64,000 nt of DNA from Strigamia acuminata (lineage: Eukaryota; Arthropoda; Chilopoda; Geophilomorpha; Linotaeniidae): contig OX442316.1 in assembly GCA_949358305.1 (NCBI GenBank), positions 10,602,001 through 10,666,000 of the forward strand, read 5' to 3'. Below are positions 11,381 to 64,000 of the stretch, piece after piece. The number at the start of each line of letters is the position of its first letter. Positions within the stretch are counted from its first letter, which is position 1. The notes under the pieces were generated by a model. That model had not been told where the DNA came from and ran no database searches. It was given only the letters and a program-made list of their open reading frames with translations. The position numbers were made by a program, and so were the translations under genes.

Positions 11381-13609
11381 TTATAAGATATTAATCTGAA
11401 AAATCATTACGACCAACTGAGCAAGAAATAAAAATCCAAACAAAATGCGGATTAATATAAAAGGTGGTTCTACTTCAAGTGTATCCTTATTGGATTTTAA
11501 GGGTGCTTGAATTCTCCTACGGCCAGTCAGAATGGCATTTGTAGCTCCATCCCACGTGTGAGGCCCATTCAAGCGATACTGATATGGATAACAAGGCCCC
11601 AAATACATAGACATAAACAGACGAGGGTCAGTAAAGAAAATCGTAGCCAAATGAGGCTTAGCACCAATCATTTCTGCAATCGAATCGACATACTCTACGT
11701 AATTGACTTGGATAGTGTGGCGCGGACTGCTGACAAAATATTTTCCCAAGTAATTATTCCGGTCTTCGATATCCTTCATCATCGCCCTCTCGCCGGGCAA
11801 ATGACACTTTCCCTATAATGAAGAAATTAATTTGTTTTAAATAAATAATAATTTTTAAATTATATTTACCATGAAGACTCGGAGTGCCCATCTGCATTGA
11901 ATTTCTGAAATTGGCAAAATGGACCCGAGCGGCTGAACGAGTCCAATAACACACAACGTTGGATGCTTCAAGTTTGTCGGGAACACGTTTTTATAAAACG
12001 TTGAGCGGTTTTCTTTTAAAGATGGAAAGACTTCGTCCGCTACAAATGGAAATGCGATCGTATACCCTGTTGCGAGAATAACCGAATCGATTGGGTATTC
12101 GACATCATCTTCTCCTTTGAAAACGACCCCATTTTCAGTGAAATGATCAATGTCGCTTTTGACTGATAGAGTTCCAGATGCAATTCTATTGGGCAGGTCA
12201 TCATTAACCATAATGTGTTGCTCTAATATCCTATGTTTTGGACGGAGTTGGTACAGTTGGTGATCAAAACGGTGATTCACCTATAGAAAATTGAAGAATA
12301 AAATACTCTGTATGGTATACATATTCATCGTTTCAAAGTGACAAATTTGCCACATTTTGATGAACATTCATCAAGTCACTTCTGTTAGTCAGGCTATCAA
12401 AAATCGATCGTTATTTGTGCTTAAGTAACTCTTTTCGTGCATATGCAATGGTGCAGTTGTTTTTTATATTTATATTTATATTTATCAGTATAACACGGAC
12501 GTTTTTTTAAATGTTTACCATTGCTTCCATGCCTGCATTTGTTAGGCCCCATGGCATGTAGGCCATCATGTGAGCAGCAAAACGGCTCAACATAGCCACG
12601 TCCAAAGGATAACCGTTTACAGACACTCGATTCATGACCCAAGTACCACGACGTGTACTAAGATAAACCTAGAAAAAAGAAAATGGGAATAAATGAATTA
12701 ATAAATGAATAAATAAATAAATTTTATTTTTTTTTTAACATGTTTAGCTATTCGACTGAGCTCGACTGCCACATCGCCGCCAGAGTTGCCAATCCCAACA
12801 ACAAGTACATTCTTATCTTCATAGCCTTTTGGAACTTTGTAGGAATGAGTGTGGATTTTGTCTCCTTTAAACTCATCTAACCCTGAAAATTGAGGCGTGT
12901 GTGGATACACATGATGACCAATGCAGATCATAACAGCATCGAAAATCTCTTCCGTGACGACTTCCTGACTCTATTTTATAAAAAAAAAAATTATATATAG
13001 GTCAATTTAATTTTTTAAATATAAATTTTCATCTCCTGAAGAAGAAAGTTGACAAATGACCTTTCAAGCTGCATTCGAACTTCCAAGATGGAATAAAAAA
13101 CTGACCTAGTCCATTTCCTAAATAAACAAAATTTTACCTGAATTTTTACTACCCATTTTCCAGTCGTTTCGTAATCACTCGCATATTTCACTCCAATAAC
13201 TGAATGGCTGTATAGGATGTACTCGTTTAAGTCAAAAGCTTTGGCATAGTCTTCCAAATATTTGACCACACTCGTGTTATGCATAAAATTGGCCAATTCA
13301 TTCGCGGGAGGGAAATCGCTGAACGCACTCAACTCTTTACTGCTGTTTATAATGGTCGATTTCATAACAGATGGAACTCCTTCCTCATCTTCATTTCTAT
13401 TTTTTTTGTAATATACATATAATTTCGTAAAATTATTAACTTAAAAGGTGTAATTATCTTCAATTATATATAATTTACCTGTATCTCCATAAACCTCCAA
13501 AATTGTTTGTTTTTTCATAACAAACTGGAATACATTTTTCTTCTAAACAAGTTTTGATAGCGGTTAATCCGCTAGGCCCAGCGCCAATTACGCAAACTCG
13601 TTTTTCCAT
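11381..13609 (-). CDS. Flavin-containing monooxygenase, copy C (6 exons)
   Basis: Exons 13609-13479, 13396-13138, 12970-12740, 12668-12519, 12280-11870 and 11812-11381; exon lengths are the same as in copy B (131, 259, 231, 150, 411, 432) and give 537 residues. It has the FAD motif GAGPSG, signature [16 protein letters not shown] motif GIGNSG, an intact ATGY (B has GTGY) and the C-terminal hydrophobic anchor. I start at the Met preceding KRVCVIGAG; the frame stays open about 18 codons further upstream, but the paralogues start at this Met. Exon 4 differs from B more than the other exons do. Role as for B: ER xenobiotic-type N/S-oxygenation inferred from family. Confidence 0.93.
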
Positions 13610-15631
13610 TGGGGAATCTTTAAATGCAAATGAACAGTGATTATTAATGTGCACAGCTGTCAATCAAACTGCAAAATTTTATCTCTGTGCTTAATTCCAT
13701 ACTACTGTCAAAAGCTATTATCTGTGACACTTGTCTGTATTGGTTGTGGATAATACGTAATATTACTATATAGAAGGTTAGATTTTCGATTTGATCTCTG
13801 GAATGAATACAAATTTTTAGTTTTGCTGGTGTCATGTCAGTGGTTTGAGTCGTTGTACAGGGTGCCAACGACACTTGTCCGGGCCCCGTTGAACTGCTGA
13901 GATTTACGACCCCTTCAAATGCTTATGTGCATAAATTATATTATCAAGTGGTTGTAATCTGTCTTGAACTCATTAATTCACAAAAGTCTGCCTGCCTTTC
14001 TGATTTTATTTATTAAAGATTCCTCTTTGATTGTCGAACAGTCATCTATATGACTGTTAATCTACAAGCACATGACCATGACCATGAGGTGTATTTCCTG
14101 CCTTTTCAACCATATAAATTGTGCCAATTACGCACAAATTTTTTTCCTTCTTTAAAAAATTTTTAAAAAAATTTAAAATTAATTTTAAAAAAAATATAAA
14201 ACTGTGACCGAAGTTCAATTTAAATACACGACACACGTTAATTTTTTTTTTAAAAATCTATGTTTGTAAATATATACTCGTATTAAGTTGACAACAAAAA
14301 TTAATTACCTTAAAATGTTCGCCAAAAATTGTCCTCAATTGTCAACGCACAAGAAAATAAAAGTTTCAATGTTGTTTTCCAGCACCAGCAGTCAAACTAT
14401 CTCCTATCAGTAGTTGCAAGTGTGTGGCGACGATATAGACGGGCTGAGACCACAGCCCAGGTGTCAAGGACGTTATGGAGCATTAACGCCGCCTATGATG
14501 GTCTAGTAACACTACCAACACAATTATGACAAGAAATTAAATTCGTACGACTGCCAATAACTTTACTCATAAAAAGCTAACTACACACTACATACCATCA
14601 TGGTTTTATATACCTTTTACATGAAATAGCTTTATCGTGCTCTTGCATTCAATACAAAAATAATAACCCGACAGTATGCATCAATCAGCTGGTTTATCAA
14701 ATTATCAGTCATAATACTTTGAATGTCACAATATTACAGTAAGTCGATTAAAAGGGAATTATATTATAAAAATAAATATAAACACAAAATAATTATCAAG
14801 TTCTCGTAGCGCTAGTAACTGAAGTCATACGTGAGCGAAGTAGAGACCGCACGGTGGGCGAGTCCCAATGAACGTGATCTTTGTCGGACAATAATCTTAA
14901 ATCCTTTAAGTATTTGACGGCAGTAAATTAAACACACTTCACATAATTAAATTATTAAAACAAACTAATAAGTATTTCTTTCTTTGGCATAAAGTAATTA
15001 AATTAACTACATAATGGGCGCTATAGCTCCCAACTGAAAATAAAAATTTTATTACACAATGACAATGCGTTTTAACCCTTGAAGGCGTAAGGCTATATGG
15101 ATTTATGGACAAGCTGTTTCTTTAATAGGAAAATTTTTATCCTATCCATTTTTTTTTGCTGAAAATTTGTGTTTTTGTTTATATGGTGTCAGACTTAGAC
15201 TCATGAAATTTGTATGTATTAGTTGTTTATTTAATTATTTATTCTGAATTGAAATTTTCAGCCCCTTAAAGCTCCAGCATAATTTTTAGCTGGCTTTGCT
15301 GCTTCAGTAAAGAACCTTTTTGCATTTACTGGTAGTGTTTAAAACCACCACCAGATGGTTCAAACTTCATTATTATTGCGCTCTTATGCCTCCGCGAAAA
15401 CACAATTCCATCACAGAAGTGCGAGGCAAAAACGTTTATACCATTTGCGTAGGAAAACGACTTTAAAAAATTACATTATTGTTAAAATTGCTATATAAAA
15501 TTTCGATAAAATTTTCAGAAATACTAGCCGTTCAGTAAATGAAAGCCCATTTTTATATTTAAAAAAAAACAACAACAACAGCAACGAATCAACAATTTAA
15601 ACAGGCTTAAACTATATTAAACATGGCAATT
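13610..15631. other. Intergenic region upstream of FMO-C
   Basis: The first 800 bases include duplicated 5' flank of the FMO unit. The rest is AT-rich with no splice-supported open frame on either strand; the longest frame (14329-14529 plus) has no recognisable content. I see no gene, repeat array or RNA here. Confidence 0.55.
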
Positions 15632-49912: not shown

Positions 49913-50917
49913 TGTAGTGACCCTAGTGGTCACTAATGAAGTGTCGGGAATGAGCCCGAAATAAAATATTAAATTGGAGATTGTTTTATTTTATTTTATA
50001 TTTTTTATGATTTCCTGTCTAGATAAAGGGAGTTAGGCAGGGTGGGAGGAATTGTGGGTGGTCGCCAAGGAAACCAGCCCGCAACCTCCCGGAGCAGGAA
50101 ACACTTCCTGTGAGGAGCAGAAAAACTCCTCAGTTTGAAACCTACTTTGAGAGCAACCAGTCACCAAAATCTTCCTGAGAAAACACCATTCTACAAGCCG
50201 ATTTAGTGAAAGATTGTCAGAGTATTTGGACTCATTCTTGCAGATTGCCAGAGCGATTTGTGAGATATTTCTTGCTGTTACTTCAGTTAGTGACAGTGGG
50301 ATTTTTATCTTGCCAAACAAGTATTGTTTGGAGGGATTTCTATTCTTGGCCAACAGCCATTGTTGGACTGAGACTTCTCACTCGCGACGAAGCGAAGTGA
50401 GCGCGAGTGTGAGAGATTGTTGTGCGGAATCAGCCGCAACGACGCCGCGACGACGACGTTGCGACCTGGAGAGGACGAAGAGAGCGGGATTGAGCCCGAA
50501 CGAGTCACGAGGAAGTAGTTGGAACGGAATTGAGTCCGTGTTGAAGAAACGTCGAGGCCGAGCCGAGCGTCGAGTGAAGCGAATCCAAGCGTTCGGCGTT
50601 CCCGAGAAGTGGAGTCGTCGAATCGACTGGATTCTTTATCATTTTCCTTTGCTTTTAATTATATTTCTTTTAGTAAATTATTTCTTCAGTCATTTAATTT
50701 ATCCGTTTATCACAAAATAATATCTTGTATTCGATTTAGTGTTTATTCTAAGTTTGAATAAATCGTCTGTTAATTGAGAAATAATTGAGTCATTATTTCT
50801 CCTATCATTTGAGTTAATATTAAGTTATTTTGAGAAGTATTTGTATAAGTCCTGGCACGGCATCAATGAGTTTAGTTTTATTGTTAATATTCTTCACAGT
50901 AATTTGAGCTCATTACA
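49913..50917 (+). repeat. 5' LTR
   Basis: The LTR starts TGTAGTG and ends CATTACA, so its ends are TGTA...TACA inverted termini. Its left edge is fixed by the copy at 63835, which follows the polypurine tract. Its right edge is set by CA just before the candidate primer site. Length 1,005 bases. A small palindrome GTGACC/GGTCAC sits at the very start (49917-49933). Poly(A)-like AATAAA lies near 49961. A GC-rich, Arg-coding patch occupies about 50390-50610, and a 168-codon frame (50214-50720) lies wholly inside. Confidence 0.9.
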
Positions 50918-51040: not shown

Positions 51041-54000
51041 ATGTCGCAGCCACAAGATTCGAGGAGAGGACGGGGAAACGGCCGCGGACCTCGCACACGA
51101 GGCGGAAGGACCACAGGAGCAGCCAATGTGCATCCTTCATCATCATCCGAGTCGGACCATGCAGATGACACCCAGGCTATGACGAGCAAGGAATTTCGTC
51201 TGGAAGTATCGCCTGAACGGCAGGGAGAATTTTGGCTAAAACAAACGAGAGAGGAGTCCCAAGATTTGCTTGGAAAATCAAGTATCTCAGGAGCTTCGTC
51301 GCAACATGGCGACACGCCAGCCACGGTGGATTCGACTCCAACAAGCAAAATAGACCTTTCTCACATGACGTTGGAGCAAGTCATCGCTGTAGCAAGGAAG
51401 CGTGGTCGACTAGTGCGAGCCTACAAGCAGCAAGCGTCAGGACGTGCCCGCGATGAGGCGGAAAGTTCAGGAGAAAACTCCCCAACCCGCCATAAATTAG
51501 CGAGAGCTCGCCAACGCATCGCAGATGTCATGAAAGAGATGGAAGACAGTCTCCAGGAGCGTCACCAGCAGTATGAGGAAGGTGTGCAGCTTTCTGATGA
51601 AGACGTGGCACAAATAACGGCAGCAATGGCCGATCGAGCAAGGCGACTGCAACTGGCACATTCCGAAGAATTCCAGATGTTGAAACGGCTCAAGTTAGAG
51701 GAACGCCACGCCAAACAAGCGAAATTCGAGGCAGAATTGGCCAAGAAAACAACAGATGAAGATATTCGCGCAAAGAAAGATCAATTGGACGCAGAAATTC
51801 GTGCTACCAAAGACCGACTCGAAGCAGAAATGCGCACGATGAGGAACAAATTGGCAGCGGAAAAACTCCGTCAGGAAACGGAGCAAAAAGAATTACGTGC
51901 ACAACGAAAAGCGCAAGCGGCGGCGGAGCGAGAGGCAATTCTTGAAGAAAATCGGAAGATAGAAGCGGAAAAAGTCCGTTTGGAAACCGAAAAGCAAGAA
52001 TTGCTGGCAAAGCAAAAGGCCATGGAGTCGGCGGAGAGCAGGGAAATCCATTACCTTCGTCAAGCTGCTCTTGAAGCACAAGAAGCCGCGGAAAGAGTCC
52101 GCCGAGAAAATGAAGAACTAAAATATCTCGCACAATGTCAGTATCAAGTGCCGAGCAACATTCCACCTCGCCGACCTGAAGTAGTGAATTTATCACCAGA
52201 ATCGTCTAGGAACTCTTTAAAAAGGAAAGGTGAAATGGATGAAAAAAGAGACTCCAAACGTGCTTCTATGTCACCAGCCAAAAATCCAAACGTATTGGAC
52301 ATAATTGATCGAAGAAATCGTCAGCATCTAACAAATCAATCAGCTGCAGCAGACAAAAAACAAGGTAAAGTGACAGGATTAGATCCAGCAGACCCGCAGA
52401 TTTGGGATAAGCCCAAAAAGATGGAAACTGAAAATGTCAGAGTATCTTCTACAAAAAATGAAGGAAAATCATTTGACGTTTACACAGAAAAACCAATAAA
52501 TGAGAACGATCCTTGTTACCATCGTAAATATACGTTGGAAGAAGCAGTTGAACACTTGTCAGCAGCTAATGAAAGAGATAGGCAACGCGAAATAAGTCGC
52601 GAAAATGAAAAACAAAAGTTTCAACACGATCAAGAAGTTCCAGAGCAAGATAAAAGCAGCAACCAAAATGCTGCGACTGGACATGATGAAGCAACTGGAC
52701 AAGCCAGTTATACGAAAGTTAGGGATTACAATGATTATCTACAAGGCGAATATTCCCAGCAACCGGAAAATGTAGATCCACGAAATGAGTCGTGTAATCA
52801 ACAAGGAATTCACACGCACACTGAAGTACGATTTTCCAACGAGACACGATCACAATATGAAAGAGAGCCGCGAAATGAGTCGCGTTATCAACAAGAAACG
52901 GACCAACAAGGTGCTGCTTGCTTCAACAACGAAACGCGTCAACAACGTAATTACGAAGCAACAGGACAGCACAATTTAAATCGAAATGAGTCGATGGAAA
53001 GAAATAATTCAAGTCAACGATCTGATTATCAAGACGAATCACGACAGCAAAGGGGCTCCTATTGGTATGAGGGTTATACCCAAAGAGAATCACAAGGACG
53101 TCGTGACAACTCACAGGATCGACACGATAATTCGTACCGACGACGTGACTATTCGGAGGGGCGACGTGATGATTCACGTGGACAATACGACGATTCACAG
53201 AGGCGACGTGATGATTCACGTGGACGATACGACGACTCGAATAGACGTCGTGACGATTCATATAGAGACCAGAGAAGATCACGGTCGAGTCCGCCACCAA
53301 CACAGCAAAAAGAGTACGAAAATGATCAAAAATACTCAAATTCGGATCATTTCCGACAGCGGGACTCTGATTTTTCCAGATCACGTGAGGAAAGGAGACG
53401 TGGAGGATATTTTCGACAAGACGATAGAGATCCACCGCCAACTAACCCACGCACTTTACCAAGAAGCACGGAGGAATTGGAAGAAATTATCTCAAGACAG
53501 ATCGATTCGCGACTATCTCAAATCCCCTCGAAATCTCAGGAAATGGAGGAAATGTTAAGAAAACTAATTCGAAAATATTGTTCAAGCAATTGGACTCACC
53601 ATTACACCCCATCTCATCAAATCAAATGGGACCGAATTACTCCCGATATGTTTGATGGAGGTTGGCAGGCTGGTACCCAATTTCTGGATGAAGTTATGCA
53701 TCTAGTTATAAATCACGAGATGGACCCAGACGTAACTTTGAAAAAATTAATTCCGAAAATGCTGGTTGGAAGTGCAACAAATTGGTTGCGAAAAAATAAT
53801 TTCACACACTGGGATGAATTTGTAAAAGCTTTTATGAAGGAATATGGAGAATCCAACGCCATGATGATAAAATATTGGGATAATCATAAACAGACGTTGG
53901 GAGAAGACATTCGCACGTATTTAAGACGTACAGAAGATTTGTTTACCCAACTCCCATATCATATTAGCGATTTCGACAAAGACAGAAAATTCAGGAATGG

Positions 54001-54823
54001 CCTGACTCCTTTTTCCGAGCAAGTGTTGCGAATGGTAGATGCACCAATGGCCAGTTCCTTCGAAAAATTATCGCAATTCATACGAAACCACCAAATGTAC
54101 ATTGACGACCGGTACGCTTCAGACATTCCAATTGAAGAACAAAGAGCACGAGATGAACAACAACGACACCAGTCAGACTACACTCGAGCTGGTGCAAAAA
54201 TGATGCGCCCGCGTTCTCAATTCTCGCTGTTACGAGAGGAAACCTCCACCAAAAAACGAGAGAGTGGACATCCTCCTTATCCACAGCCACGAATACCAAT
54301 GCGACCAAATGTCAAATGGACACAATACCCGGGTGAATCCAGTGAGTCGATTGGAGATACTCAGATAATGCTGGCCGAATATACAGAAGAAGAAGTAGAC
54401 AAATTGATGGATGCTGCTAGTGTGTTATTCACGAAAAATAATCCAGCAATAACAAAATATAAGCCTCCAATGCAGGTGAGGCAACCGCAGCAAACGAGTT
54501 TGCAGCCACAGATGAAAGGAAATACGTCCTTCCTTCCAAAACCATTTTCAGTCGATTTCAATTTGAAAAAAGAAAATAATAAATCGCAAATTGGAGAAAA
54601 AACTGAACAAACTTCAACTCCAAGTAGCACTGATGACGGCAATAAGGCCAACCAAATAAAGTTGACTCCAGAAAATGCACCATGCCATAATTGCGGACAA
54701 ATTGGGCACTGGGCGCGACAATGTCCACACCCGAAAAGATTGATGTCTGCAGAAGAAATGGAGCAACTTGTAAACTCCTTATCCGAAAGTATCACAAAAA
54801 ACTTGAACGCGCGGGCTCAATAA
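51041..54823 (+). CDS. gag: Gag polyprotein of the LTR element
   Basis: An open frame of 1,260 residues, much longer than usual gypsy Gag (about 300-500). The N-terminus is RG-rich (RRGRGNGRGPRTRGG). Residues about 150-365 are a long Glu/Lys/Arg/Ala coiled-coil region. Residues about 365-850 are polar low-complexity, including a tandem RRDDS-RGRYDDS repeat (about 684-750). A capsid-like Retrotrans_gag segment spans about 850-1017 (DMFDGGWQAGTQFL, ATNWLRKN, KYWDNHKQTLGEDI). One zinc knuckle CHNCGQIGHWARQC is at 1215-1228. Role: particle assembly and RNA packaging. The start follows a 120-base leader after the LTR. The stop UAA lies in the loop of the predicted frameshift stem. The long coiled-coil and RD-repeat insert are unusual. 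Confidence 0.95.
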   Translation: MSQPQDSRRGRGNGRGPRTRGGRTTGAANVHPSSSSESDHADDTQAMTSKEFRLEVSPERQGEFWLKQTREESQDLLGKSSISGASSQHGDTPATVDSTPTSKIDLSHMTLEQVIAVARKRGRLVRAYKQQASGRARDEAESSGENSPTRHKLARARQRIADVMKEMEDSLQERHQQYEEGVQLSDEDVAQITAAMADRARRLQLAHSEEFQMLKRLKLEERHAKQAKFEAELAKKTTDEDIRAKKDQLDAEIRATKDRLEAEMRTMRNKLAAEKLRQETEQKELRAQRKAQAAAEREAILEENRKIEAEKVRLETEKQELLAKQKAMESAESREIHYLRQAALEAQEAAERVRRENEELKYLAQCQYQVPSNIPPRRPEVVNLSPESSRNSLKRKGEMDEKRDSKRASMSPAKNPNVLDIIDRRNRQHLTNQSAAADKKQGKVTGLDPADPQIWDKPKKMETENVRVSSTKNEGKSFDVYTEKPINENDPCYHRKYTLEEAVEHLSAANERDRQREISRENEKQKFQHDQEVPEQDKSSNQNAATGHDEATGQASYTKVRDYNDYLQGEYSQQPENVDPRNESCNQQGIHTHTEVRFSNETRSQYEREPRNESRYQQETDQQGAACFNNETRQQRNYEATGQHNLNRNESMERNNSSQRSDYQDESRQQRGSYWYEGYTQRESQGRRDNSQDRHDNSYRRRDYSEGRRDDSRGQYDDSQRRRDDSRGRYDDSNRRRDDSYRDQRRSRSSPPPTQQKEYENDQKYSNSDHFRQRDSDFSRSREERRRGGYFRQDDRDPPPTNPRTLPRSTEELEEIISRQIDSRLSQIPSKSQEMEEMLRKLIRKYCSSNWTHHYTPSHQIKWDRITPDMFDGGWQAGTQFLDEVMHLVINHEMDPDVTLKKLIPKMLVGSATNWLRKNNFTHWDEFVKAFMKEYGESNAMMIKYWDNHKQTLGEDIRTYLRRTEDLFTQLPYHISDFDKDRKFRNGLTPFSEQVLRMVDAPMASSFEKLSQFIRNHQMYIDDRYASDIPIEEQRARDEQQRHQSDYTRAGAKMMRPRSQFSLLREETSTKKRESGHPPYPQPRIPMRPNVKWTQYPGESSESIGDTQIMLAEYTEEEVDKLMDAASVLFTKNNPAITKYKPPMQVRQPQQTSLQPQMKGNTSFLPKPFSVDFNLKKENNKSQIGEKTEQTSTPSSTDDGNKANQIKLTPENAPCHNCGQIGHWARQCPHPKRLMSAEEMEQLVNSLSESITKNLNARAQ

Positions 54824-57800
54824 AAGCAGTGGAGCTCGCGCCAACAAAAATTTCGGAAAATCTGCTACAAGCCCAACCAACATCAGAATTAACAATCGAA
54901 ATGGTACAAGATTCGGATGGATTATCGGAGGTCCAGCCAATAAATGAAGCCATGACGGAAACGCTGTTAATATCAGAAACATTATCAGAATCAAAGGACT
55001 TGCTGAAAAACTCTGAAAATTCGCAAAACATGCAGACAACACTGCCGGAAAATTCGGAAAATTGTGGAAATTTACAGAATGACCGATCATTAGATGGAGA
55101 AATATCAGAGACTTCATTAATATTGAAAACATCAGCGGAACCCGAGAATTTGACTGAAAATACCCAAGAAACTCCACCAACAGCAAAAGCGCCTAAGGGA
55201 GCACGATTCATCAAAGACCCCAAAACTGGAGAATATGTGCAATCAGAATTAGCTGAAAAATCACATAAAGTGATAGGAACTTTAGAAGGTGGAAAAGGGA
55301 CAATAGTCTTTAACTTTGAAGACGGCGAAGTCGTAGGGATGAGATATCCGACACAAAAACCAGTGACGGACTCTAAACTGGAACAAGCCGAAACTTCATC
55401 AAAAATGAACATTCTGAAAGACAATGGACCACTAAAAAACACAACTATTCCAGTAACACTCACGTCACCAGAAGCAATTGGCACAATGCCAAAAAGAGGA
55501 GAAATGATTTGTGAAATGGAATGTGGACAAATAGTAGGAATAAAATTTCCACCAGTAGAATTGGAAAATTGTCCAAAAATAAAAGAAATCTATGAAACAA
55601 ATAGAACTTATTTCACAGCAGAAGTGACGGAAGCCCTTAAAAATGTGGAAATCACACAAGAAAATGAAGCAACAATTTTTTGGGCAAAGGTAAAAGAGAC
55701 CTATGAGGAAACACCATCACTAGCAGCATGGATGACAGATACACCAACTGAGCCTGTGGAATGGGATCCATTATTGAAAGAGTTAACAACATTGGAGCCG
55801 GAAGGACCACGCATCAGAATTTTTAATATATTATTGCCAGAAGAAGATGTTTTGGAAGGGATGACAACAATAGACCTCCAAACAGAACAAGGATCCATCG
55901 CTGCCATGCTAGACTCAGGAGCCAACCGTAGTTGTGTTTCATGGCCATTAATTCAGGCGATGGGATTGGAAAAAGAAGTGTGGCCCGTCAAGGCCAATAT
56001 GGCTGTAAATACAGCAGATAAAAAAGTGCAACCGATGGGAACAATAAGGATGATGATTCGTTGGACCCATGGAATGATGCAACAGTATTTCCTCGTGTTA
56101 CCACACGACATGAAATTCATGTTGGTTGGCAATGATGCCATGAAACGAATGAAAATACAGCCCAATCCGCTCAACGGCAAGTGGAACTTTATTTCAACGA
56201 TCGACGTGCCACAACCATATATGCCACAATTCATCATGGATAAATATGAGCAGAAGAAACTGGAAGAGCCAGAATCATTGCGAAAAACATTCCGAAAAGA
56301 GAGTAGTTTTTGCGCATTTGAAGCGAGATTGAAAGTTGGCAATGGCTTGCATGACATGATAGAAGAAGCCAAACTGCAACTAACAGAAGCTTTACAATTA
56401 GAGCATGTATTGAAGAAATATGAGAAAATTTTGAGTAAAAATCCAGGCAAGACTCATGTGGTACAGCACACCATCAATTTAGACACTGACAAACCAATAA
56501 GGGTTCCTTTTAAATCTTGGAATCCACAAAAAAGGGAAATATTGCGGACATTATGCCAAGAAATGATTGATAAGGGCTATGTAACAACTGCAGAAGGCGA
56601 TTATGCGACAAGGATTGTGTTGGTAATGAGACCAGGTTCAGAGCCACGTCTCTGTATTGATTACAGAGCGCTGAATGAACACACTCTGTATGACCCGCCC
56701 CAGATGCCGACAATAACAGAAATTTTAAGAGAACTCGGCGAATTTCAATGGGTTTCTACCATTGATCTAACGAAAGGATACTGGCAAATAGATTTGAGAC
56801 CGGAAGACCGTCCGAAAACAGCATTCTGGAGTCCTCAAGGCCGACTGATGTTTAACGTCATGCCTTTTGGACTGGTCAATGCGCCAACCACTTTTCAGCG
56901 ACTAATAGAAAAGGTACTAGGCGAAGCATTCCGAAAATATGCTTGGGCCTACCTTGACGATATTGTGATCGTATCAAAAACGTACGCAGAACACATGAAA
57001 CATCTAGATTCAGTTTTAGGAAAATTACAGAAAGCTGGATTGCATGTAAACCCAACAAAGTCAAAATTCTGCAGGAAGGAACTAAAATTTCTAGGGTACA
57101 AACTTGGAATCAACGGCTTAAGCGTAGACCCAGCCAAAGTAGCGGCCATAAAGGAATTTCCAGCGCCAAAAAATTTGACAGAGTTACAACGATTTTTTGG
57201 CATGGTCAATTTTTTTCATAGACTTCTCAAGAATCTGGCCACAGTGGCCGAACCTCTACGCCCACTCCTGAAGAAAGGGATAGAATTTATTTGGGAGGAA
57301 GTACACCAAGTTGCCTTTGATAACATTAAGCAATTACTGACCGATGCCAAAACTATGCACTTGCCAAATTTACACCAACCATTCATCGTAAGGACAGACG
57401 CGAGTAAGAAAGGATTGGGTGCTGCCTTGATGCAGATCAAAGAAATTGATGGACAAATGATTGAATCACCGTGTGTGTACCTCAGTAGATGTCTGCAACA
57501 GGCAGAACTTAATTACGGCGCCACGGATCTCGAATGTTTGGCGGTAATTTGGGCGCTCCGAAAATTTAGACCATATTTGGAGTTCACAAGTTTCGTTGTG
57601 CAGACGGATCATGAGGCGCTAAAATGGTTGATGAGACTGGAAGAGCCAGCTGGACGTCTCGCCCGTTGGCAGATGGAATTGATGTCTTATAATTTTACAA
57701 TCCAATATTTGAAAGGGACTGCCAACACATTAGCAGACGCCTTATCTAGAGCACCAATTCAACTCATCTGCGACAACGAAGAGACGGGAGAAGCCGACGG

Positions 57801-60000
57801 TGACTTAAAATACTGCCCGACAGAACCACGAAAATGGGTCGTGGGTAACTGGAATCAGTTGCCAAAACCTCAGTCGGAAGAAGAACGATTAGTAGACGAG
57901 CAAGTCACGGCATATTGGAGTCACATGTATGATGCGCCGGCAGAAGAGTCGGAAATAAGTCCGAAAATTAAAGAAGTTCAATATTTGCCGACTTCCGAAT
58001 GCGAAATGGTGACAGCATTCATTGCAAAAGTCACGGAGCAGGCAGATTGCATGCCTCCGACCCGCGAAGAAATTATAGAGCATCAAAAAAAGGATCGCCA
58101 CTGCCAATCAATGCGATACTACCTCGAGACAGAACAATTTCCAGCTTACGTAACAACACCATTACAAAAGAAGAATTATCGCATGTTGGCGACTAAACAC
58201 ATGTTAGAAGAGGATTTATTATTAAAATACCATCCAACATTGTCAGATGATTTAAGCGAGGATTCTCGAGCCCTGAAGGTCGTGATACCGAGATCACTAA
58301 GATTCCGAGTATTATGGCAAATGCACGGCCACCCGCTCGCAAGCCATTGCGGAATTGCGAGGACGCTTTATCGAATGCGACAGATTTATACGTGGGACGG
58401 AATCAAACGTGACACCACCAGATTTATTAAACACTGTCCGCGGTGTCAGGCGTGTAAACCTCGGACTAAAACACGAGTAGAAGCAGCGCAAATTGGCCCA
58501 TATGCACCTTTTGAGTGTCTAAGTATAGATTTGGTAGGACCATTGATTAGAACTGATGAAGGAAACAATTACATTTTAGTAATTTTGGATATAGCCACCA
58601 GATGGCCGGAACTTTACCCATTATCCGACCCCGTCGCACAAGATATAGCGGATTGTCTGTACAACACGTGTATGGGATGGGGATTCCCGCTCCGAATCGT
58701 GTCAGATAACGGCCCGCAATTTAAGGCCCGAATATACCACGAATTCTGTAGAAAATTCAAAATTACTCCGCGATTTACGTCGCCATATCATCCGCAGGCC
58801 AACACGGTAGAAAGGACCAACCGCGATTTAAAGTATATTTTGTCAATTTTCACAGATATTCACAAAAGGTGGGACACATATTTAAGAGAAATTGCGTTTA
58901 GCATACGCACAACGGCAACAACAGGCCGCGATTATTCTCCAGCATACTTGAATTGCTGTAGAGAATTTAGGATTCCTTGGGATCCAAGGATTTTGGATGG
59001 AATTGCAAAAATAGACCCAAATAAGCCGCATATTTACATCCAACGACTGGAGAAAATAATTAGAGATACATATCACCATATGATGGCGCACATAACCGAC
59101 TTGCGCGAACGAGTGCAAAATCACAAGATGGATAAAAAGTTTGACGACTTTAAAACAAATGATTTGGTATGGAAAGATGATCACCCATTATCAAAAGCGT
59201 CACAAGGGATTTCGGCGAAATTATCCGACAAGCGGAGCGGACCATATGTGATCATCCAAGTCCACCAAGGAGGAGCAGTGAAGCTGCGACGGCTAAAAGA
59301 TAATAAGATCTTTCGCTCCATTCACATGTCCGAATTATCACCTTATTTCCCGGAATTTAATCAAGAAATTTGGGAAAAGGATCAAACTCAGAGCAATCCG
59401 AATGGAAAAATAATTAATACATTATTTGATGAGCCAACAACATCCGAAACACAAGAAAATACGGAGACAGAAAATTCGCAGACCACTGAAATGAATCGGA
59501 TGAATAATAGTAATTCAGCGGAATCACAAACTTTGAAACAAACACAAAGTTTGCAAGATTCGCAAAATTTAGAAGATGCACAAGAATCTCACACTTTGGA
59601 TAACACACAAAGTTTGCAGGATCCACAAACATCACAACAACAACTGGAATTACAGGATTTGTCAGGTTCAGACACAGCAGGCGTGAGTTCTCAAGTTTCA
59701 AGTAAACAAAGAAGCGGCGAAAAGGATAACAATTTGGAGAGCGACGAGGAGTTGGATACAAATTCCAATGACAACACGCAAGAAAATTTGCCACTTTTTC
59801 CACAGGACTTAAGTTTAGAAACAGATGAACAAGTTGCGTCTTTTTCTAAAAAGAGGGGAGGAGTGGTAGAAAAGAAGAAAATAAAGAAATTTTATCAAGA
59901 TTTGCGTGAAAAACAACCTAAAAAAGTCAAGAAAAAAGCTATCTTGAAGAAATATTCACTTCGAGATAGGGGGAGGATTAAGCCTCCAGACTACCTCTAA
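54691..60000 (+). CDS. pol: Pol polyprotein (protease, RT, RNase H, integrase)
   Basis: The frame from the first Met at 54691 has 1,769 residues, but translation most likely enters by -1 frameshift near 54802. Numbering from 54691: an Asn/Glu/Thr-rich leader (1 to about 370); aspartic protease with LDSGA (Asp408); reverse transcriptase about 610-800 with YLDD at 754-757; RNase H about 900-1023 (RTDASKKGLGAAL, DLECLAV, QTDHEAL); integrase zinc site H1214, H1219, C1249, C1252; catalytic Asp1280, Asp1339, Glu1374 (DD35E); GPY/F-like SGPYVIIQVHQGG; then a Gln/Ser/Glu-rich tail from about 1560 with SLQDSQ/SLQDPQ repeats and a basic end. All catalytic residues are present and there is no internal stop, so the enzyme set looks functional. 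Confidence 0.97.
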   Translation: MRTNWALGATMSTPEKIDVCRRNGATCKLLIRKYHKKLERAGSIKAVELAPTKISENLLQAQPTSELTIEMVQDSDGLSEVQPINEAMTETLLISETLSESKDLLKNSENSQNMQTTLPENSENCGNLQNDRSLDGEISETSLILKTSAEPENLTENTQETPPTAKAPKGARFIKDPKTGEYVQSELAEKSHKVIGTLEGGKGTIVFNFEDGEVVGMRYPTQKPVTDSKLEQAETSSKMNILKDNGPLKNTTIPVTLTSPEAIGTMPKRGEMICEMECGQIVGIKFPPVELENCPKIKEIYETNRTYFTAEVTEALKNVEITQENEATIFWAKVKETYEETPSLAAWMTDTPTEPVEWDPLLKELTTLEPEGPRIRIFNILLPEEDVLEGMTTIDLQTEQGSIAAMLDSGANRSCVSWPLIQAMGLEKEVWPVKANMAVNTADKKVQPMGTIRMMIRWTHGMMQQYFLVLPHDMKFMLVGNDAMKRMKIQPNPLNGKWNFISTIDVPQPYMPQFIMDKYEQKKLEEPESLRKTFRKESSFCAFEARLKVGNGLHDMIEEAKLQLTEALQLEHVLKKYEKILSKNPGKTHVVQHTINLDTDKPIRVPFKSWNPQKREILRTLCQEMIDKGYVTTAEGDYATRIVLVMRPGSEPRLCIDYRALNEHTLYDPPQMPTITEILRELGEFQWVSTIDLTKGYWQIDLRPEDRPKTAFWSPQGRLMFNVMPFGLVNAPTTFQRLIEKVLGEAFRKYAWAYLDDIVIVSKTYAEHMKHLDSVLGKLQKAGLHVNPTKSKFCRKELKFLGYKLGINGLSVDPAKVAAIKEFPAPKNLTELQRFFGMVNFFHRLLKNLATVAEPLRPLLKKGIEFIWEEVHQVAFDNIKQLLTDAKTMHLPNLHQPFIVRTDASKKGLGAALMQIKEIDGQMIESPCVYLSRCLQQAELNYGATDLECLAVIWALRKFRPYLEFTSFVVQTDHEALKWLMRLEEPAGRLARWQMELMSYNFTIQYLKGTANTLADALSRAPIQLICDNEETGEADGDLKYCPTEPRKWVVGNWNQLPKPQSEEERLVDEQVTAYWSHMYDAPAEESEISPKIKEVQYLPTSECEMVTAFIAKVTEQADCMPPTREEIIEHQKKDRHCQSMRYYLETEQFPAYVTTPLQKKNYRMLATKHMLEEDLLLKYHPTLSDDLSEDSRALKVVIPRSLRFRVLWQMHGHPLASHCGIARTLYRMRQIYTWDGIKRDTTRFIKHCPRCQACKPRTKTRVEAAQIGPYAPFECLSIDLVGPLIRTDEGNNYILVILDIATRWPELYPLSDPVAQDIADCLYNTCMGWGFPLRIVSDNGPQFKARIYHEFCRKFKITPRFTSPYHPQANTVERTNRDLKYILSIFTDIHKRWDTYLREIAFSIRTTATTGRDYSPAYLNCCREFRIPWDPRILDGIAKIDPNKPHIYIQRLEKIIRDTYHHMMAHITDLRERVQNHKMDKKFDDFKTNDLVWKDDHPLSKASQGISAKLSDKRSGPYVIIQVHQGGAVKLRRLKDNKIFRSIHMSELSPYFPEFNQEIWEKDQTQSNPNGKIINTLFDEPTTSETQENTETENSQTTEMNRMNNSNSAESQTLKQTQSLQDSQNLEDAQESHTLDNTQSLQDPQTSQQQLELQDLSGSDTAGVSSQVSSKQRSGEKDNNLESDEELDTNSNDNTQENLPLFPQDLSLETDEQVASFSKKRGGVVEKKKIKKFYQDLREKQPKKVKKKAILKKYSLRDRGRIKPPDYL
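54796..54841 (+). promoter_or_regulatory. -1 programmed ribosomal frameshift signal (gag-pol)
   Basis: In the gag frame the codons ACA AAA AAC form the slippery heptamer A AAA AAC (54796-54802), one of the classic -1 sites. After a 6-base spacer comes a 10-bp stem: GCGCGGGCTC (54809-54818) pairs with GAGCTCGCGC (54832-54841) through nine Watson-Crick pairs and one G-U, with a 13-base loop that contains the gag stop. Pol is in the -1 frame from this point. The layout matches retroviral frameshift sites in sequence, spacing and frame. Confidence 0.88.
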
Positions 60001-60742
60001 AAATAGAAGGTAGCGACGTCACTCGGGAGTCCGGAAGTGGACGACGTCGCAGCTCGAACGTGATTGGTCGAGACGAATCTCACTTGTTAACTTGACATCA
60101 AAACAACAACAAGTTTAGAAAAGTTATCCCGGATTCTAACAACAACAGTCGGTAAGAACAAGAGGGAAAACGACCAAAAAACGAAGAAAAGTGTGCAGCC
60201 AAGTGAAAGAAGGGTCCGATTAAGCGGAAGTTCATCTCAAGATGTTCGAACCACGGAAAACACCACCACCGAAAAGACAGGACCACAGTGAGGTAGTAAA
60301 ATCGAAATGTGTCGAAAATATAAATGAATAAGGAAGTATTTTCTCTCATCGGGTGTGTTATTTGAAAGCGCTTAAATTTTTGTGGAAAAGACGGGACGAA
60401 ATATGTCGTTACTACGGGACAAGTTCGGCGAAATCACGATTTAAAAGGAAAAGGAGTCGAATGTCTCGAAATAAGTTAAAATAAAATTAGTTATCACGTA
60501 AATAACTGGTTTTATATGACGAAAGTGCTAATTATTCGCCAAAAATTGCAAAAGAGTGGTATAAAAAGGACTCCTATCACAAAAAATTAGCACGGAGCGC
60601 CATCTTGTGAGAAAATTTAGAATAATAAAACTCAAAATCGAGATAAATACGCAAAAATAACACACACATCAGAGAAAGATAAAATACAATGAATTTGAGA
60701 GAAAATTGAAGTTAATAATGTTTTATACAGACCCAAGAAGCC
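60001..60742 (+). other. Pol-ORF3 spacer
   Basis: 740 bases without a supported frame. AT-rich, with a GACGTC near the start. At its end, TTTTATACAG (60720-60730) is a fair splice acceptor 12 bases before the ORF3 start, so ORF3 may be made from a spliced subgenomic RNA. No internal ribosome entry can be judged from sequence. Confidence 0.5.
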
Positions 60743-63700
60743 ATGGCGTCGTGGGGAAGAATTTCGAGAGCGGCTAGATTGCCAAGGAATATCCATCGAG
60801 GGAGAATTCCATACAGATACAAGAGAGAATTCGTCAAGAGAGGTTTTACAGCATTTCAAGCACGCAAAGCCTTCACAACAGCCATCCAAAGATTTTGGGG
60901 AACGACGAAACGACTATTTAAAGGATTCAAAACATGTTTCCACGAAGTTTTGAGACAGATCCCAATTACAGAGGACACACATGGCCCAATTTGGAACCAG
61001 ATGATAGGGGACGAATATCCAATAGAAGAGGAGGAAGCAGCCGATCTCAAAATATACCAGAATCCTGCGACAAACAAATTTAAATTCGTGGAAGAGGTGA
61101 TGGCAAAGCTGAAAGCCGGAGCACCAGAAGTAGCGGCTAAATATATGGAGGAGAAGACAGCTTACCTCGAAGCTCAGGCCTTATTGCCTTCCCCGGAGTT
61201 AGATAAAGAGCCGCCATACTTCATAAAGAGTCAGTACAAGATGCACCAACTCCATATGACGGGACTCATTGGCCAAAACATCACACCGCTCAATTTAGAA
61301 GGTGAGCCGCAAGCCGAGGATTTTGGACCGCTCGTGTACGCCAAACAACAGCGGCAGGAGCAGGACGAGTGGGAGGCAGCATTAGAGCAGGCGGCAGAAG
61401 AAACGGTGAAGGAATTGCACGAGGAAGTGGAGTTTCTGAAATGTGTCAGAACGGAAGAAGAGGAAACCAAACGGCGAGGAAGAGAAGCCAGATCACGAGG
61501 AGCCCTTCGTTACTCCAGGAGTGAGAGACACAAAAGGACAACTCCTCCTCGAAGAATCAGCCCAAAATATTATACCAGGGAATTCAGATCTAGGCGAAAA
61601 GAGTACAGAAGTGCGGAAATAAGTCCGAGAAGATGTCAAAGTCGAGATAGAAAAGAAAGTCCCCGACGAAGGAGTAAAAGTCCAAGACGGCAATATTTCT
61701 CTCGTCAAACGCAAATGGAGAAAAGATTAAGTCGAACAGACAAAGATTCAGAGAGGGAAGTAAAGAGGCATCAACGAAGCTCGGAAATAAGTCCGAAAAG
61801 GAATTCGAGGCGACACGAAACGACAGAGCAAGAATACGTACCTAGACACCACCGAGCAACAGAGAAGCGTCCGTCAGCCGAAGGAAATCGAATTGAGCGG
61901 ACAAAGAAGCGCCCACGGTCGTCACACCGCTATTCAGAAATGCGCCCAGCAAGAAAAGTGACAATTTCGGCAAGTAAAGATGAGACACTACAGGTGCAAA
62001 TTCGCAGAAGTTCGTCGGACGAGTATTTGACGGCACATGAGATGGAGCTAGATCAATACGTGGTAATGGACGAGTGTCAACGTTCGCCATCGCCTGAGTC
62101 GGAGGAAGAGCAGCAATTGGCTGAAACGACTGTTCGCATTTTGGAGGAACGGGAGCCAACAGCGACAGTCATACACGACATTGAAAAACAACAGGGAGGT
62201 GAAACCAACAAAAGAGGGCCACGAACACCACCTACTACCCCGCCAAGACAGCAGGAAGTACAGAAACCATCGCTGGCCACCCCTCCAAGACCGGACCAGG
62301 CGCCAAAGACACCACCACCGAGTACGCACACTCCTATTACCTGGACTCCAACCACGTGCCCGCCAACGCCAACGCCGCGAGTGTCATCACCAGAGATTTC
62401 CAGCTGCCGAGAGTTGCCGACTCTTGACGAGGCCTTAGCCCAGGCATGGGAGAAAAGGGCAAGGGAACCAGCGCGAAAAAAAGGACCATCGCGAATACTG
62501 CGCCCGAGGATGCGAGATCCAAGGAAGGTACAACCAAAAGCTACGCCAAGTGCCGCCTTGGGGGTGCCTCACCCTCACTTGCAGCCAATTACGGAACCAA
62601 TTCCCCAAACGGACTTATCACTGCCAATTCCATCAGTAGCCACTGTGATGTACACGATAGACCCATCAGTCAAATTAGCCGAAGATTTCGATAGATACTA
62701 TCGACAGCTGTGGACAATGTATCTGAAATTTCCATTATGTAACCAAGGACTTCTGACCCCGACGATGGACGAGTACCAGCAAGCCCAATTAGCAGAATCA
62801 CTAAATGAACGACGGAGATGCGCTCAAGCCTTCGTCGCCCAACCCACCGAATTGAGAACCAAAGAATGGCTAGCTTGGTTCGAAGTGCAAATGTCAGTGG
62901 CATTAATAAGACTTTTGTTTCCAGGAGTTTTCCAAGCGGTCGAAGCATCGCTGATCGCCACAAGTTTCCTATGGACGTCAGCAATGGGCATCCCACCTGA
63001 GTTGTTCGACAGCTGGAAAACAGTATTGGGAGACCCACCTGTCATCCGGGCCCAATTGGAACGAGAAGTTTTTAAAACGGGAGAAACATCGGGGCAGTGC
63101 ATGCTGAGACTGCGGGGCGAATGGATTCTGAGAAGACAGAGTTTGCAACTGCAACGGAATTTTGGGACGTGTGCGCAGCAAGTGGCTGACCCACCAGCAG
63201 CGGGAGGGGCGGTGCCCACAGTCTTTATGACTGCCACGCCGAGCCACCAGCCAACCAAAAAAGCAATAGCTCCAGAATCCGATGTTGAGTTGAAATTGAC
63301 CACCGATACTGAGATGTTTGATGTCGAAGGGAATGAGCCCTTAAATAGAGCTAGTGGAAGCTCGCAAAAAACAGCGTCTGGCAGAAGTTCGGCAGCCATT
63401 AAAGGGACGAAAAAGAATCCAAACCAAGACTACAGGAAAATAAAACAGTTGTATCCAGGTCTGAGATTCCCCGAATACGCGCGAACTCTACTTATCTATA
63501 ATGCGACGTTATGCCATGAGGCATTGAAGTGGCTCGAGAATGCTGTCAGAGAGCCTAAACGCATAATTCAGCATCAACGACTAGTTGCGGTGCGGAGACC
63601 ACCCACCGGATCCCGCGAAAAATATGACATCGATTATGACCGAGTATTCCCGAGGACCAAGTTCATCAAAGAAGTCTGGCTCCATGTCAACAATGGCGCC

Positions 63701-63790
63701 ACCTCGGGACCAACCCAGCATCTGCCAAAATTTTCGGTTTCCGAAAGCGAAGCTCCAACTCCGGAGTCAGTTTTCCGAATCGAGAAGTGA
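60743..63790 (+). CDS. Third ORF of the LTR element: RS-rich protein of unknown function
   Basis: An intact 1,015-residue frame after pol, in the position envelope genes occupy in errantiviruses. It does not look like an envelope: no signal peptide, no cleavage site, no clear membrane anchor. Visible parts: basic amphipathic N-terminus (1-60, several Arg and Phe); helical Glu/Ala-rich region (about 90-242); Arg/Ser-rich domain (about 246-379) with SPRR, SRDRK and repeated EISPKR-type motifs like SR splicing proteins; Pro/Thr-rich linker with many TPP/SP sites (about 490-560); a mostly helical, moderately hydrophobic block (about 640-812); and a final block with YPGLRFPEYARTLLIYNATL (about 900-930). 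I do not recognise a family. RNA binding or a nuclear role is an inference from the RS domain. Confidence 0.9.
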   Translation: MASWGRISRAARLPRNIHRGRIPYRYKREFVKRGFTAFQARKAFTTAIQRFWGTTKRLFKGFKTCFHEVLRQIPITEDTHGPIWNQMIGDEYPIEEEEAADLKIYQNPATNKFKFVEEVMAKLKAGAPEVAAKYMEEKTAYLEAQALLPSPELDKEPPYFIKSQYKMHQLHMTGLIGQNITPLNLEGEPQAEDFGPLVYAKQQRQEQDEWEAALEQAAEETVKELHEEVEFLKCVRTEEEETKRRGREARSRGALRYSRSERHKRTTPPRRISPKYYTREFRSRRKEYRSAEISPRRCQSRDRKESPRRRSKSPRRQYFSRQTQMEKRLSRTDKDSEREVKRHQRSSEISPKRNSRRHETTEQEYVPRHHRATEKRPSAEGNRIERTKKRPRSSHRYSEMRPARKVTISASKDETLQVQIRRSSSDEYLTAHEMELDQYVVMDECQRSPSPESEEEQQLAETTVRILEEREPTATVIHDIEKQQGGETNKRGPRTPPTTPPRQQEVQKPSLATPPRPDQAPKTPPPSTHTPITWTPTTCPPTPTPRVSSPEISSCRELPTLDEALAQAWEKRAREPARKKGPSRILRPRMRDPRKVQPKATPSAALGVPHPHLQPITEPIPQTDLSLPIPSVATVMYTIDPSVKLAEDFDRYYRQLWTMYLKFPLCNQGLLTPTMDEYQQAQLAESLNERRRCAQAFVAQPTELRTKEWLAWFEVQMSVALIRLLFPGVFQAVEASLIATSFLWTSAMGIPPELFDSWKTVLGDPPVIRAQLEREVFKTGETSGQCMLRLRGEWILRRQSLQLQRNFGTCAQQVADPPAAGGAVPTVFMTATPSHQPTKKAIAPESDVELKLTTDTEMFDVEGNEPLNRASGSSQKTASGRSSAAIKGTKKNPNQDYRKIKQLYPGLRFPEYARTLLIYNATLCHEALKWLENAVREPKRIIQHQRLVAVRRPPTGSREKYDIDYDRVFPRTKFIKEVWLHVNNGATSGPTQHLPKFSVSESEAPTPESVFRIEK

Positions 63791-63820: not shown

Positions 63821-63834
63821 AAAAAGAGGGGAGG
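63821..63834 (+). other. Polypurine tract
   Basis: AAAAAGAGGGGAGG lies directly before the 3' LTR (TGTAGTG at 63835), the place and composition of the primer for plus-strand synthesis. It lies 30 bases after the ORF3 stop. Confidence 0.93.
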
Positions 63835-64000
63835 TGTAGTGACCCTAGTGGTCACTAATGAAGTGTCGGGAATGAGCCCGAAATAAAATATTAAATTGGA
63901 GATTGTTTTATTTTATTTTATATTTTTTATGATTTCCTGTCTAGATAAAGGGAGTTAGGCAGGGTGGGAGGAATTGTGGGTGGTCGCCAAGGAAACCAGC
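63835..64000 (+). repeat. 3' LTR (first 166 bases; truncated by the window end)
   Basis: All 166 visible bases match 49913-50078 with no difference seen by eye. The rest, including the right target duplication, lies beyond the window. Confidence 0.95.

Follow-up and report, generated by a model that had tools for sequence, protein, structure and literature searches.

A selected third gene with an arginine/serine-rich region, and dispersed hairpins, in a Ty3/gypsy retrotransposon of the centipede Strigamia acuminata

Genes beyond gag and pol are known from several lineages of long terminal repeat (LTR) retrotransposons, and their products need not be envelope proteins. The closest described case is CERV, a protein of the Ty3/gypsy element Cer1 of C. 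elegans, which is spliced and nuclear and whose Ser-Pro phosphorylation is required for export of the genomic RNA; it has 517 residues and five exons, shares exons with gag, and contains a Cys-rich loop and a G-protein-like domain (PMC10309623). In the LTR retrotransposons of bdelloid rotifers, a third open reading frame (ORF3) codes for a GDSL esterase, a DEDDy exonuclease or an env-like protein, gained and exchanged by lineage (PMC5408684). Plant LTR retrotransposons, for example Retand, have an additional open reading frame beside gag-pol (PMC11963269, PMC7264820). Among retroviruses, RNA export relies on Rev in HIV-1 and on an NXF1-binding RNA structure in Mason-Pfizer monkey virus (summarised in PMC10309623). 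The subject here is the ORF3 gene, together with a set of small hairpins, of a Ty3/gypsy element at the end of a 64,000-nucleotide stretch of Strigamia acuminata DNA (assembly GCA_949358305.1, contig OX442316.1, positions 10,602,001 to 10,666,000, forward strand), called the window below.

ORF3 resembles CERV in being a non-env third protein of a gypsy element that is spliced (here as read from genomic copies), diverges fast, lacks known relatives and has Ser-Pro sites. The likeness is one of role, shown for CERV and proposed for ORF3, and not of ancestry, the two being set side by side from description. ORF3 differs in its length of 1036 residues, in a first exon that lies downstream of pol, and in a region rich in arginine and serine (R/S region). 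The accessible parts of the Cer1 account mention no dispersed hairpins, whereas the centipede element carries 17. Like the rotifer types, ORF3 is non-env and lies between pol and the 3' LTR, but it is neither of the two enzymes: eight ORF3 copies gave no Pfam match to a GDSL esterase or DEDDy exonuclease up to E 0.5. The plant elements belong to other, plant lineages and are likened to this one by description and not by sequence. An earlier reading of the window from its letters (the sequence-only reading) knew of no gypsy lineage with such a protein. That needs qualifying, since Cer1 carries CERV, although neither an R/S-region ORF3 nor a dispersed hairpin set in a gypsy element was found described in the open-licence literature. 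Accessory ORF3 genes in LTR elements are thus already known from rotifer elements and Cer1, and an ORF3 gene with an R/S region is apparently undescribed.

ORF3 is a genuine accessory gene of its Ty3/gypsy lineage, and that it is real and under selection is virtually certain. The sequence-only reading had drawn attention to a stop-free frame of 1,015 codons in the env position of a gypsy-type retrotransposon, and both parts of that description hold. The frame, at 60743-63790 on the forward strand, starts with ATG and has 1015 codons plus a stop between pol and the 3' LTR. The longest stop-free stretch in 500 first-order Markov sequences of equal composition was 229 codons. Codon usage in the ORF3 frame correlates with that of gag and pol at 0.86 and 0.84, compared to 0.55-0.73 in the five other frames.

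The genome (237.5 Mb, 157 contigs) was searched for further copies; the best candidates were scored, and all copy counts are lower bounds. A search for SL1 RNA, which would have pointed to a nematode host, gave nothing here but gave nothing in the control genomes either, and so is uninformative. The window's own group, clade A, comprises at least 26 ORF3 copies: 22 that are full-length and 95-100% identical without a stop (the window's own included), and four that are more diverged (L023, L024, L025/L027 and L026/L028). Of these, 24 have a frame open from end to end; the exceptions are L024, with stops in the 5' part, and L023, in which the first 70 residues usually present are missing. Another group of loci, clade B, matches piecewise at 42-52%, with a whole-length identity of 46-48%, and a third, clade C, was added by a search with a clade B member. 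These two divergent clades of the same genome are about 40-50% identical to the window's ORF3 over most of its length. At least 27 loci are of the B or C type, 20 without stop or truncation (among them L031, with a foreign 5' part), six with stops and one cut short.

The sequence-only reading had named purifying selection and presence in related elements as what would support a real gene; broken copies, a ratio of nonsynonymous to synonymous divergence (dN/dS) near 1, or a captured host gene would speak against it. Selection was measured by the Nei-Gojobori method in 20 chosen pairs, of 378 possible, among 28 distinct aligned ORF3 sequences. All 17 pairs with finite dS have dN/dS of 0.11-0.24, and in each, none of 1000 bootstraps had dN equal to or above dS; in three A-B pairs dS was saturated. 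Purifying selection and copies in sister clades are therefore both present, and neither a ratio near 1 nor a captured host gene was found. Broken copies do occur, as the stops in L024 and in six of the 27 B/C-type loci attest, but most copies are open. The two C-terminal blocks are the most constrained parts of the protein: in five within-clade pairs, dN/dS is 0.05-0.09 for residues 641-830 and 0.04-0.09 for residues 886-1015, compared to 0.11-0.33 for residues 1-240. Between clades A and B, ORF3 is about 47% identical, whereas pol is 82-83% identical (clade A against four B-type copies), so ORF3 diverges much faster than pol.

Clade C is a mosaic. Its identity to clade B is 86-97% over residues 1-240 and 40-48% over residues 431-830, the C-terminal block stands at 65-67%, and its R/S region is 67-83% identical to that of the B copy L035 but only 45-46% to that of L032. 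Judged from these alignments, parts of ORF3 are exchanged between clades (L035, L038 and L039), clade C ORF3 combining a B-like first part with a second part of its own. The several-fold variation of dS between regions within one pair is a further sign of exchange between copies. As a separate observation, the clade B copy L037 (C1:53.35 Mb) has a long foreign frame at 1-1267 (element orientation) upstream of gag, by eye a fragment of another retroelement's pol.

The gene does not start at 60743, as the sequence-only reading had it. A short exon and an intron that it missed precede the long frame, and with exon 1 the full protein has 1036 residues:

60242-60292 (+), ORF3 exon 1: 17 codons, MFEPRKTPPPKRQDHSE, ending in GAG; with ATG and open in 26 of 26 clade A copies, and a similar exon in clade B copies L029 and L030
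60293-60730 (+), ORF3 intron: 438 nt, GTAGTA...TTTTATACAG; exactly absent from the clade A copy L022, its counterpart absent from the clade B copy L029
60731-63790 (+), ORF3 exon 2: 1019 codons plus stop, including the frame 60743-63790

In L022 and L029, the missing stretch runs from GTAGTA to the AG before exon 2 (as placed in their relatives), and the frame then continues back into the short upstream exon. GTAGTA directly follows exon 1 in all clade A copies but L022, and L030 of clade B has the same arrangement. The gap between pol and the frame at 60743 is 742 nt, and the whole pol-ORF3 gap is kept in 26 of 27 clade A-like copies. The simplest reading of these genomic copies is that the element's RNA is sometimes spliced at the ORF3 intron and that spliced RNA would have been reverse transcribed twice. 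The intron is present in most copies, so the template of reverse transcription is usually RNA still unspliced there. Both intron-less copies also keep the pol end upstream of exon 1, so they do not reveal how an ORF3 mRNA bypasses gag-pol. The exon found lies downstream of pol and is not shared with gag, and there may be further exons upstream. An internal promoter for ORF3 is possible as well; one candidate, TATAAAAAG at 60560-60568, about 170 nt before exon 2, was not relied on, the chance of such a match being about 0.14.

The protein has a basic N-terminus, followed by the R/S-rich region (about residues 241-430), a Pro/Thr-rich region (431-640), a conserved helical-looking block (641-830), a variable linker and a conserved C-terminus. 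Three of these parts recur below:

61463-62032 (+), ORF3 R/S-rich region: residues 241-430, counted from the ATG at 60743
62663-63232 (+), ORF3 conserved block, helical-looking: residues 641-830; the helices come only from a model of low confidence
63398-63787 (+), ORF3 conserved C-terminal block: residues 886-1015; 57-67% identical between clades

Arginine and serine are enriched over about residues 242-400 and together reach 50% in the best 50 residues. All seven copies compared, from three clades, have 36-42% R+S there, though clade A is only 40-46% identical to clades B and C in this region, so it is composition rather than sequence that seems to be kept. Several other features named by the sequence-only reading were found again, among them 23 serine/threonine-proline (S/T-P) sites and the two structured-looking blocks at the C-terminus, which are the most conserved parts. 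It was also right that membrane features are lacking: ORF3 has no membrane-type segment (highest 19-residue Kyte-Doolittle mean 1.55), its composition is basic and Pro-rich, and Pfam gave no env match in the window's ORF3 or in eight copies, whereas the third frame of an env-bearing errantivirus would have a signal peptide, a membrane anchor or a known fusion protein. No relatives of ORF3 by sequence were found in the PDB, IMG/VR or GTDB contigs. A PDB profile search of ORF3 gave TRIP12, an E3 ligase, in two chains at E 0.7, which was taken as chance. Single-sequence AlphaFold2 models of residues 633-826 and 878-1000, with a mean predicted local distance difference test (pLDDT) of 44 and 42, were too poor to use.

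Hairpins with a nearly constant loop are scattered along the same element. They were missed by the sequence-only reading, although some encode Ser-Pro sites that it had noticed, and the pattern was spotted through short repeats common to the R/S region, pol and the LTR. The class is defined as a stem of 4-5 bp around the loop A[A/T]TNAG. The sense strand of the element has 17 (one LTR counted), while 200 dinucleotide shuffles give 0.26 on average and never more than 2; the antisense strand has one, and the 49.9 kb flank has one in the sense direction and none on the other strand. Loop matches are enclosed by a stem of at least four pairs in 19 of 60 cases in the element versus 5 of 131 in the flank. 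When one fixed loop letter is changed, G/C-containing stems of at least four pairs are seldom seen (2 of 70, 0 of 21, 1 of 178, 6 of 146 and 2 of 171), which argues that the loop letters matter. The excess is spread over the element. There are four hairpins in gag, five in pol and three in ORF3 (synonymous-shuffle means 0.05, 0.13 and 0.09) and four in the LTR and leader (dinucleotide-shuffle mean 0.04), counts that none of 300 shuffles reached in any of these regions. The single hairpin of the pol-ORF3 gap (shuffle mean 0.01) was reached in 3 of 300.

All five stem positions have several base-pair types, a descriptive point since the sites were chosen for having stems. The covariation counts and the invariance of the loop letters A, T, A and G are likewise partly circular, the sites having been picked by pattern, and weight is placed on the shuffles, loop variants and homologous sites. 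Pentaloop hairpins, ANNAG, are also in excess (10, compared to a mean of 2.0 and a maximum of 4 in 100 shuffles). In the window the excess lies in gag and pol; the gap has one, and ORF3 and the LTR are free of them. This class was defined after inspection and is secondary. The sites are as follows, with the loop in brackets:

49944-49959 (+), hairpin TCGGG[AATGAG]CCCGA in the LTR; clades B and C have pentaloop hairpins with re-paired stems at this site
50423-50438 (+), hairpin TGCGG[AATCAG]CCGCA in the LTR; no counterpart among the hexaloops of clade B copies L029 and L030
50484-50499 (+), hairpin CGGG[ATTGAG]CCCG (4 bp) in the LTR; no counterpart in L029 or L030
50524-50539 (+), hairpin ACGGA[ATTGAG]TCCGT in the LTR; no counterpart in L029 or L030
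52586-52601 (+), hairpin CGCGA[AATAAG]TCGCG in gag; same place in clade B gag (BLAST coordinates), with loop ATTGAG
52779-52794 (+), hairpin CACGA[AATGAG]TCGTG in gag; same place in clade B gag, outer pair C-G changed to T-A
52869-52884 (+), hairpin CGCGA[AATGAG]TCGCG in gag; no clade B counterpart seen
52980-52995 (+), hairpin ATCGA[AATGAG]TCGAT in gag; same place in clade B gag
55242-55257 (+), hairpin TCAG[AATTAG]CTGA (4 bp) in pol; not kept in clade B
56491-56506 (+), hairpin AACC[AATAAG]GGTT (4 bp) in pol; not kept in clade B
56620-56635 (+), hairpin TTGGT[AATGAG]ACCAG in pol; CTGGT[AATGAG]ACCAG in clade B
57949-57964 (+), hairpin TCGGA[AATAAG]TCCGA in pol; not kept in clade B
59972-59987 (+), hairpin GGAGG[ATTAAG]CCTCC at the pol end; loop ATTAAA in clade B
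60214-60229 (+), hairpin TCCG[ATTAAG]CGGA (4 bp) upstream of exon 1; kept in clade A copies L022, L023 and L026, not in clade B copy L029
61613-61628 (+), hairpin CGGA[AATAAG]TCCG (4 bp) in ORF3; no clade B or C counterpart at this alignment column
61781-61796 (+), hairpin TCGGA[AATAAG]TCCGA in ORF3; site kept in seven of seven aligned copies from three clades
63327-63342 (+), hairpin AAGGG[AATGAG]CCCTT in ORF3; same site in clade B with the closing G-C changed to A-T, absent in clade C
63866-63881 (+), hairpin TCGGG[AATGAG]CCCGA, the 3' LTR copy, from the motif scan

Seven of the 17 sites recur at the same place in clade B: three of the four gag sites, two of the three in ORF3, and one each of the four LTR and five pol sites, but not the gap site. 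Clade B also has hairpins of its own at further sites. At shared sites, the stems are often re-paired. For example, the shared LTR site reads TCGGG[AATGAG]CCCGA in clade A, ACAGA[AAAAG]TCTGT in B and TCAGA[AAAAG]TCTGA in C; a gag site pairs CACGA..TCGTG in A but TACGA..TCGTA in B; and an ORF3 site in the linker, the part of the protein that differs most between clades, has AAGGG[AATGAG]CCCTT in A and AGGA[ATTGAG]TCCT in B. Each of seven B copies has 3-4 hairpins in ORF3, the C copies L038, L039 and L040 have 4, 3 and 4 (one of the last past the stop), and the clade A copies L022, L023 and L026 have 3, 3 and 2. In three of three B copies tested and in L023, ORF3 exceeds all 300 synonymous shuffles, and a plain count gives four hairpins in clade B gag (L037). 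Four further gypsy families of this genome, read over 26 kb around long pol frames and the frames ahead of them, have none of these hairpins in the sense direction and a single one in antisense. The hairpins have very probably been selected as RNA; our confidence in this was lowered slightly because three of the four LTR sites are without a hexaloop counterpart in clade B.

The element that carries the gene and the hairpins is laid out as follows:

49913-50917 (+), 5' LTR: 1005 bp, TGTAGTGA...TCATTACA; by repeat detection, its end set by LTR-only matches
51041-54823 (+), gag: 1260 aa, with a charged region, an R/D/S-rich region at about 660-810 and one CCHC knuckle
54691-60000 (+), pol frame: protease, reverse transcriptase, ribonuclease H and integrase (PR-RT-RNaseH-IN), -1 relative to gag
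54796-54802 (+), slippery heptamer A AAA AAC, in a register that fits a -1 frameshift into pol
59848-59861 (+), polypurine tract repeated within the 3' end of pol; with the junction included, 22 of 25 nt agree, and clade B copy L029 has a similar purine tract there
59968-60057 (+), conserved block around the pol stop, almost unchanged from the window (clade A) to L029 (clade B)
63821-63834 (+), polypurine tract AAAAAGAGGGGAGG, directly 5' of the 3' LTR
63835-64000 in the window (+), 3' LTR, extending past the window to its full end at 64839; by repeat detection and LTR-only matches

The LTR starts with TG and ends with CA, and with a short target duplication and a polypurine tract adjoining the 3' LTR the element is of the Ty3/gypsy type (Metaviridae). 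The two LTRs are identical at 1005 of 1005 positions and the element is flanked on both sides by a 4 bp duplication, ACCT, so the insertion is recent. Pfam finds the domains of pol in the order PR-RT-RNaseH-IN, the protease matches lying below the curated cut-off, and the best PDB match of pol is Ty3, in keeping with a Ty3-like reverse transcriptase; the pol protein found nothing in IMG/VR or among phage records. The second polypurine tract may be a central polypurine tract or a relic of an older 3' end. The near-identity of the block around the pol stop contrasts with the protein identities between clades A and B given above for pol and ORF3. Tandem hairpins are predicted in 59964-60076 (z -2.19; 5 of 200 shuffles as good), and the shorter stretch 60001-60080 is not special in its folding (z -0.82; 39 of 200 as good). 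Far from the element, at window positions 1-13640, are flavin-containing monooxygenase-like genes, with a 2.3-kb stretch repeated at 87% identity (7172-9337 and 11382-13640).

What could such a gene do for the element? The reading we favour, with chances falling a little short of even, is that a spliced, nuclear ORF3 helps unspliced element RNA leave the nucleus or be packaged; a role for ORF3 specifically in RNA export or escort is held somewhat more tentatively. The protein would be nuclear, given its basic R/S region and S/T-P sites, would multimerise through its conserved C-terminal blocks, and would act on the element's own RNA, so that the intron-containing genomic RNA escapes splicing and retention, is exported and reaches Gag. 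As recognition marks, the hairpins would be read by ORF3 or Gag or the two together. The escort role fits because a protein with an R/S region is made from spliced RNA, and the genomic RNA must exit the nucleus with its intron. Rev multimerises on structured RNA and its purpose is the export of unspliced genomic RNA, which for ORF3 is a proposal; retroviral export signals are one compact RNA region, whereas this element has many small hairpins over its whole RNA.

In small RNA viruses, which are not retroviruses, dispersed packaging signals take the form of many hairpins with constant loops and varying stems, bound by the capsid protein. We know of no Ty3/gypsy case. A bolder version of our reading, possible though doubtful, is that the element has a dispersed hairpin code of about 17 sites from LTR to LTR, with a near-constant A[A/T]UNAG or ANNAG loop and freely changing stems, and its own reader in ORF3, alone or with Gag, by which the intron-containing genomic RNA would be recognised, exported and packaged.

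Several findings weigh against the favoured reading. SR proteins combine an RRM with an RS domain, the latter having at least 50 residues, over 40% R+S and consecutive RS/SR repeats. No RRM was found by Pfam in the window's ORF3 or in eight copies, and the R/S region lacks an (RS)n run, with 14 RS/SR dipeptides that do not exceed what its composition predicts (shuffle mean 11.6, P 0.26). The SR-protein-like domain of the sequence-only reading therefore stands in composition only. This region is also among the less constrained parts (dN/dS 0.17-0.26, five within-clade pairs). Pfam assigns no family and no recognised RNA-binding domain to the window's protein, and its single match over eight copies, found in one of them at E 0.052, is weak and concerns an unstructured region. 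The splice donors upstream of gag, by which an ORF3 mRNA might bypass gag-pol, are weak by score. The hairpins are found in the LTR and in ORF3 itself as well, and hence do not single out the unspliced RNA. Their motif was defined on the window's element after being seen, the independent tests being the other clades and the four control families only. Clade B has no counterpart at 10 of the 17 sites (LTR 3 of 4, pol 4 of 5, gag 1 of 4, gap 1 of 1, ORF3 1 of 3), and its pol has a single hairpin (shuffle mean 0.08, maximum 2), too few for enrichment. Finally, the lineage's Gag is unusually long and may itself be the hairpin reader.

That last point opens the way to a rival that is rather unlikely in our estimate: ORF3 could be a Gag cofactor for packaging or assembly that scaffolds or regulates Gag, with no escort of RNA from the nucleus, and the hairpins could be dispersed packaging signals read by the CCHC knuckle of Gag. 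The hairpins do lie along the whole genomic RNA, gag shares most of its sites with clade B (three of four), and Gag has, besides its knuckle, an R/D/S-rich region of its own. At 1260 aa it is about 2.5 to 3.4 times as long as the frames ahead of pol in the four control families (374-511 residues, taken as gag), which are without sense-strand hexaloop hairpins; in two of these families, about 3.4 kb past pol has no sense-strand frame over 139 codons. Since the same lineage has both ORF3 and an unusually large Gag, the co-occurrence of hairpins and ORF3 does not decide which is the reader. What a Gag cofactor leaves unexplained is the need for a spliced gene with an R/S region. Repeated peptides (SE[LIM]SP, RNES) or the spread of short repeats could have produced the hairpins without selection for an RNA signal, but this is improbable. 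It has in its favour that most hairpins of ORF3 specify E[LIM]SP, read in one frame, that some gag ones encode R-N-E-S, and that ten sites are without a clade B counterpart. Against it, the LTR, the gap and a second reading frame also have hairpins, and the protein-keeping synonymous shuffles give means of 0.05-0.13, not the 3-5 seen. Among Ser codons AGT accounts for 19%, yet it is the Ser codon in 15 of the 16 E[LIM]SP motifs of six related copies; the remaining motif is without a hairpin. Copying is ruled against, since the stems differ while the loops stay.

Other roles for the protein can be imagined. ORF3 might use its R/S region to tether the pre-integration complex or the element's RNA to chromatin or nuclear bodies, for integration targeting or nuclear retention. 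Its basic R/S and S/T-P-rich regions would suit this, and the conserved C-terminal blocks could bind a host factor, but Pfam and the profile search found no known domain and the hairpins and intron would go unexplained, which makes tethering unlikely. Given the same low chance is a protein that counters host silencing, whether by a small-RNA pathway or by nuclear surveillance of intron-containing RNA. The fast divergence of ORF3 between clades A and B beside strong constraint within clades, and the exchange of its halves between clades, are as one would expect of a protein facing host defence; the same pattern is equally expected of any fast-evolving accessory or Gag-like protein. That ORF3 is a diverged envelope gene is extremely improbable, since its position 3' of pol and its preceding intron recall env but it lacks a membrane-type segment and a Pfam env match and has a basic, Pro-rich composition.

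With a strongly selected gene in the env position, complete with an intron, domains and many natural variants, the centipede element offers a way, beyond C. elegans, to test directly what non-env 3' open reading frames do. Which parts of the hairpins are read is already hinted at by the stem changes found in nature. If the hairpins bind Gag or ORF3, this would be a rare retroelement whose RNA identity lies in many small structures and not in one signal. If the element does have a hairpin code with a reader of its own, multi-site self-recognition would replace the single packaging or export element of known retroelements.

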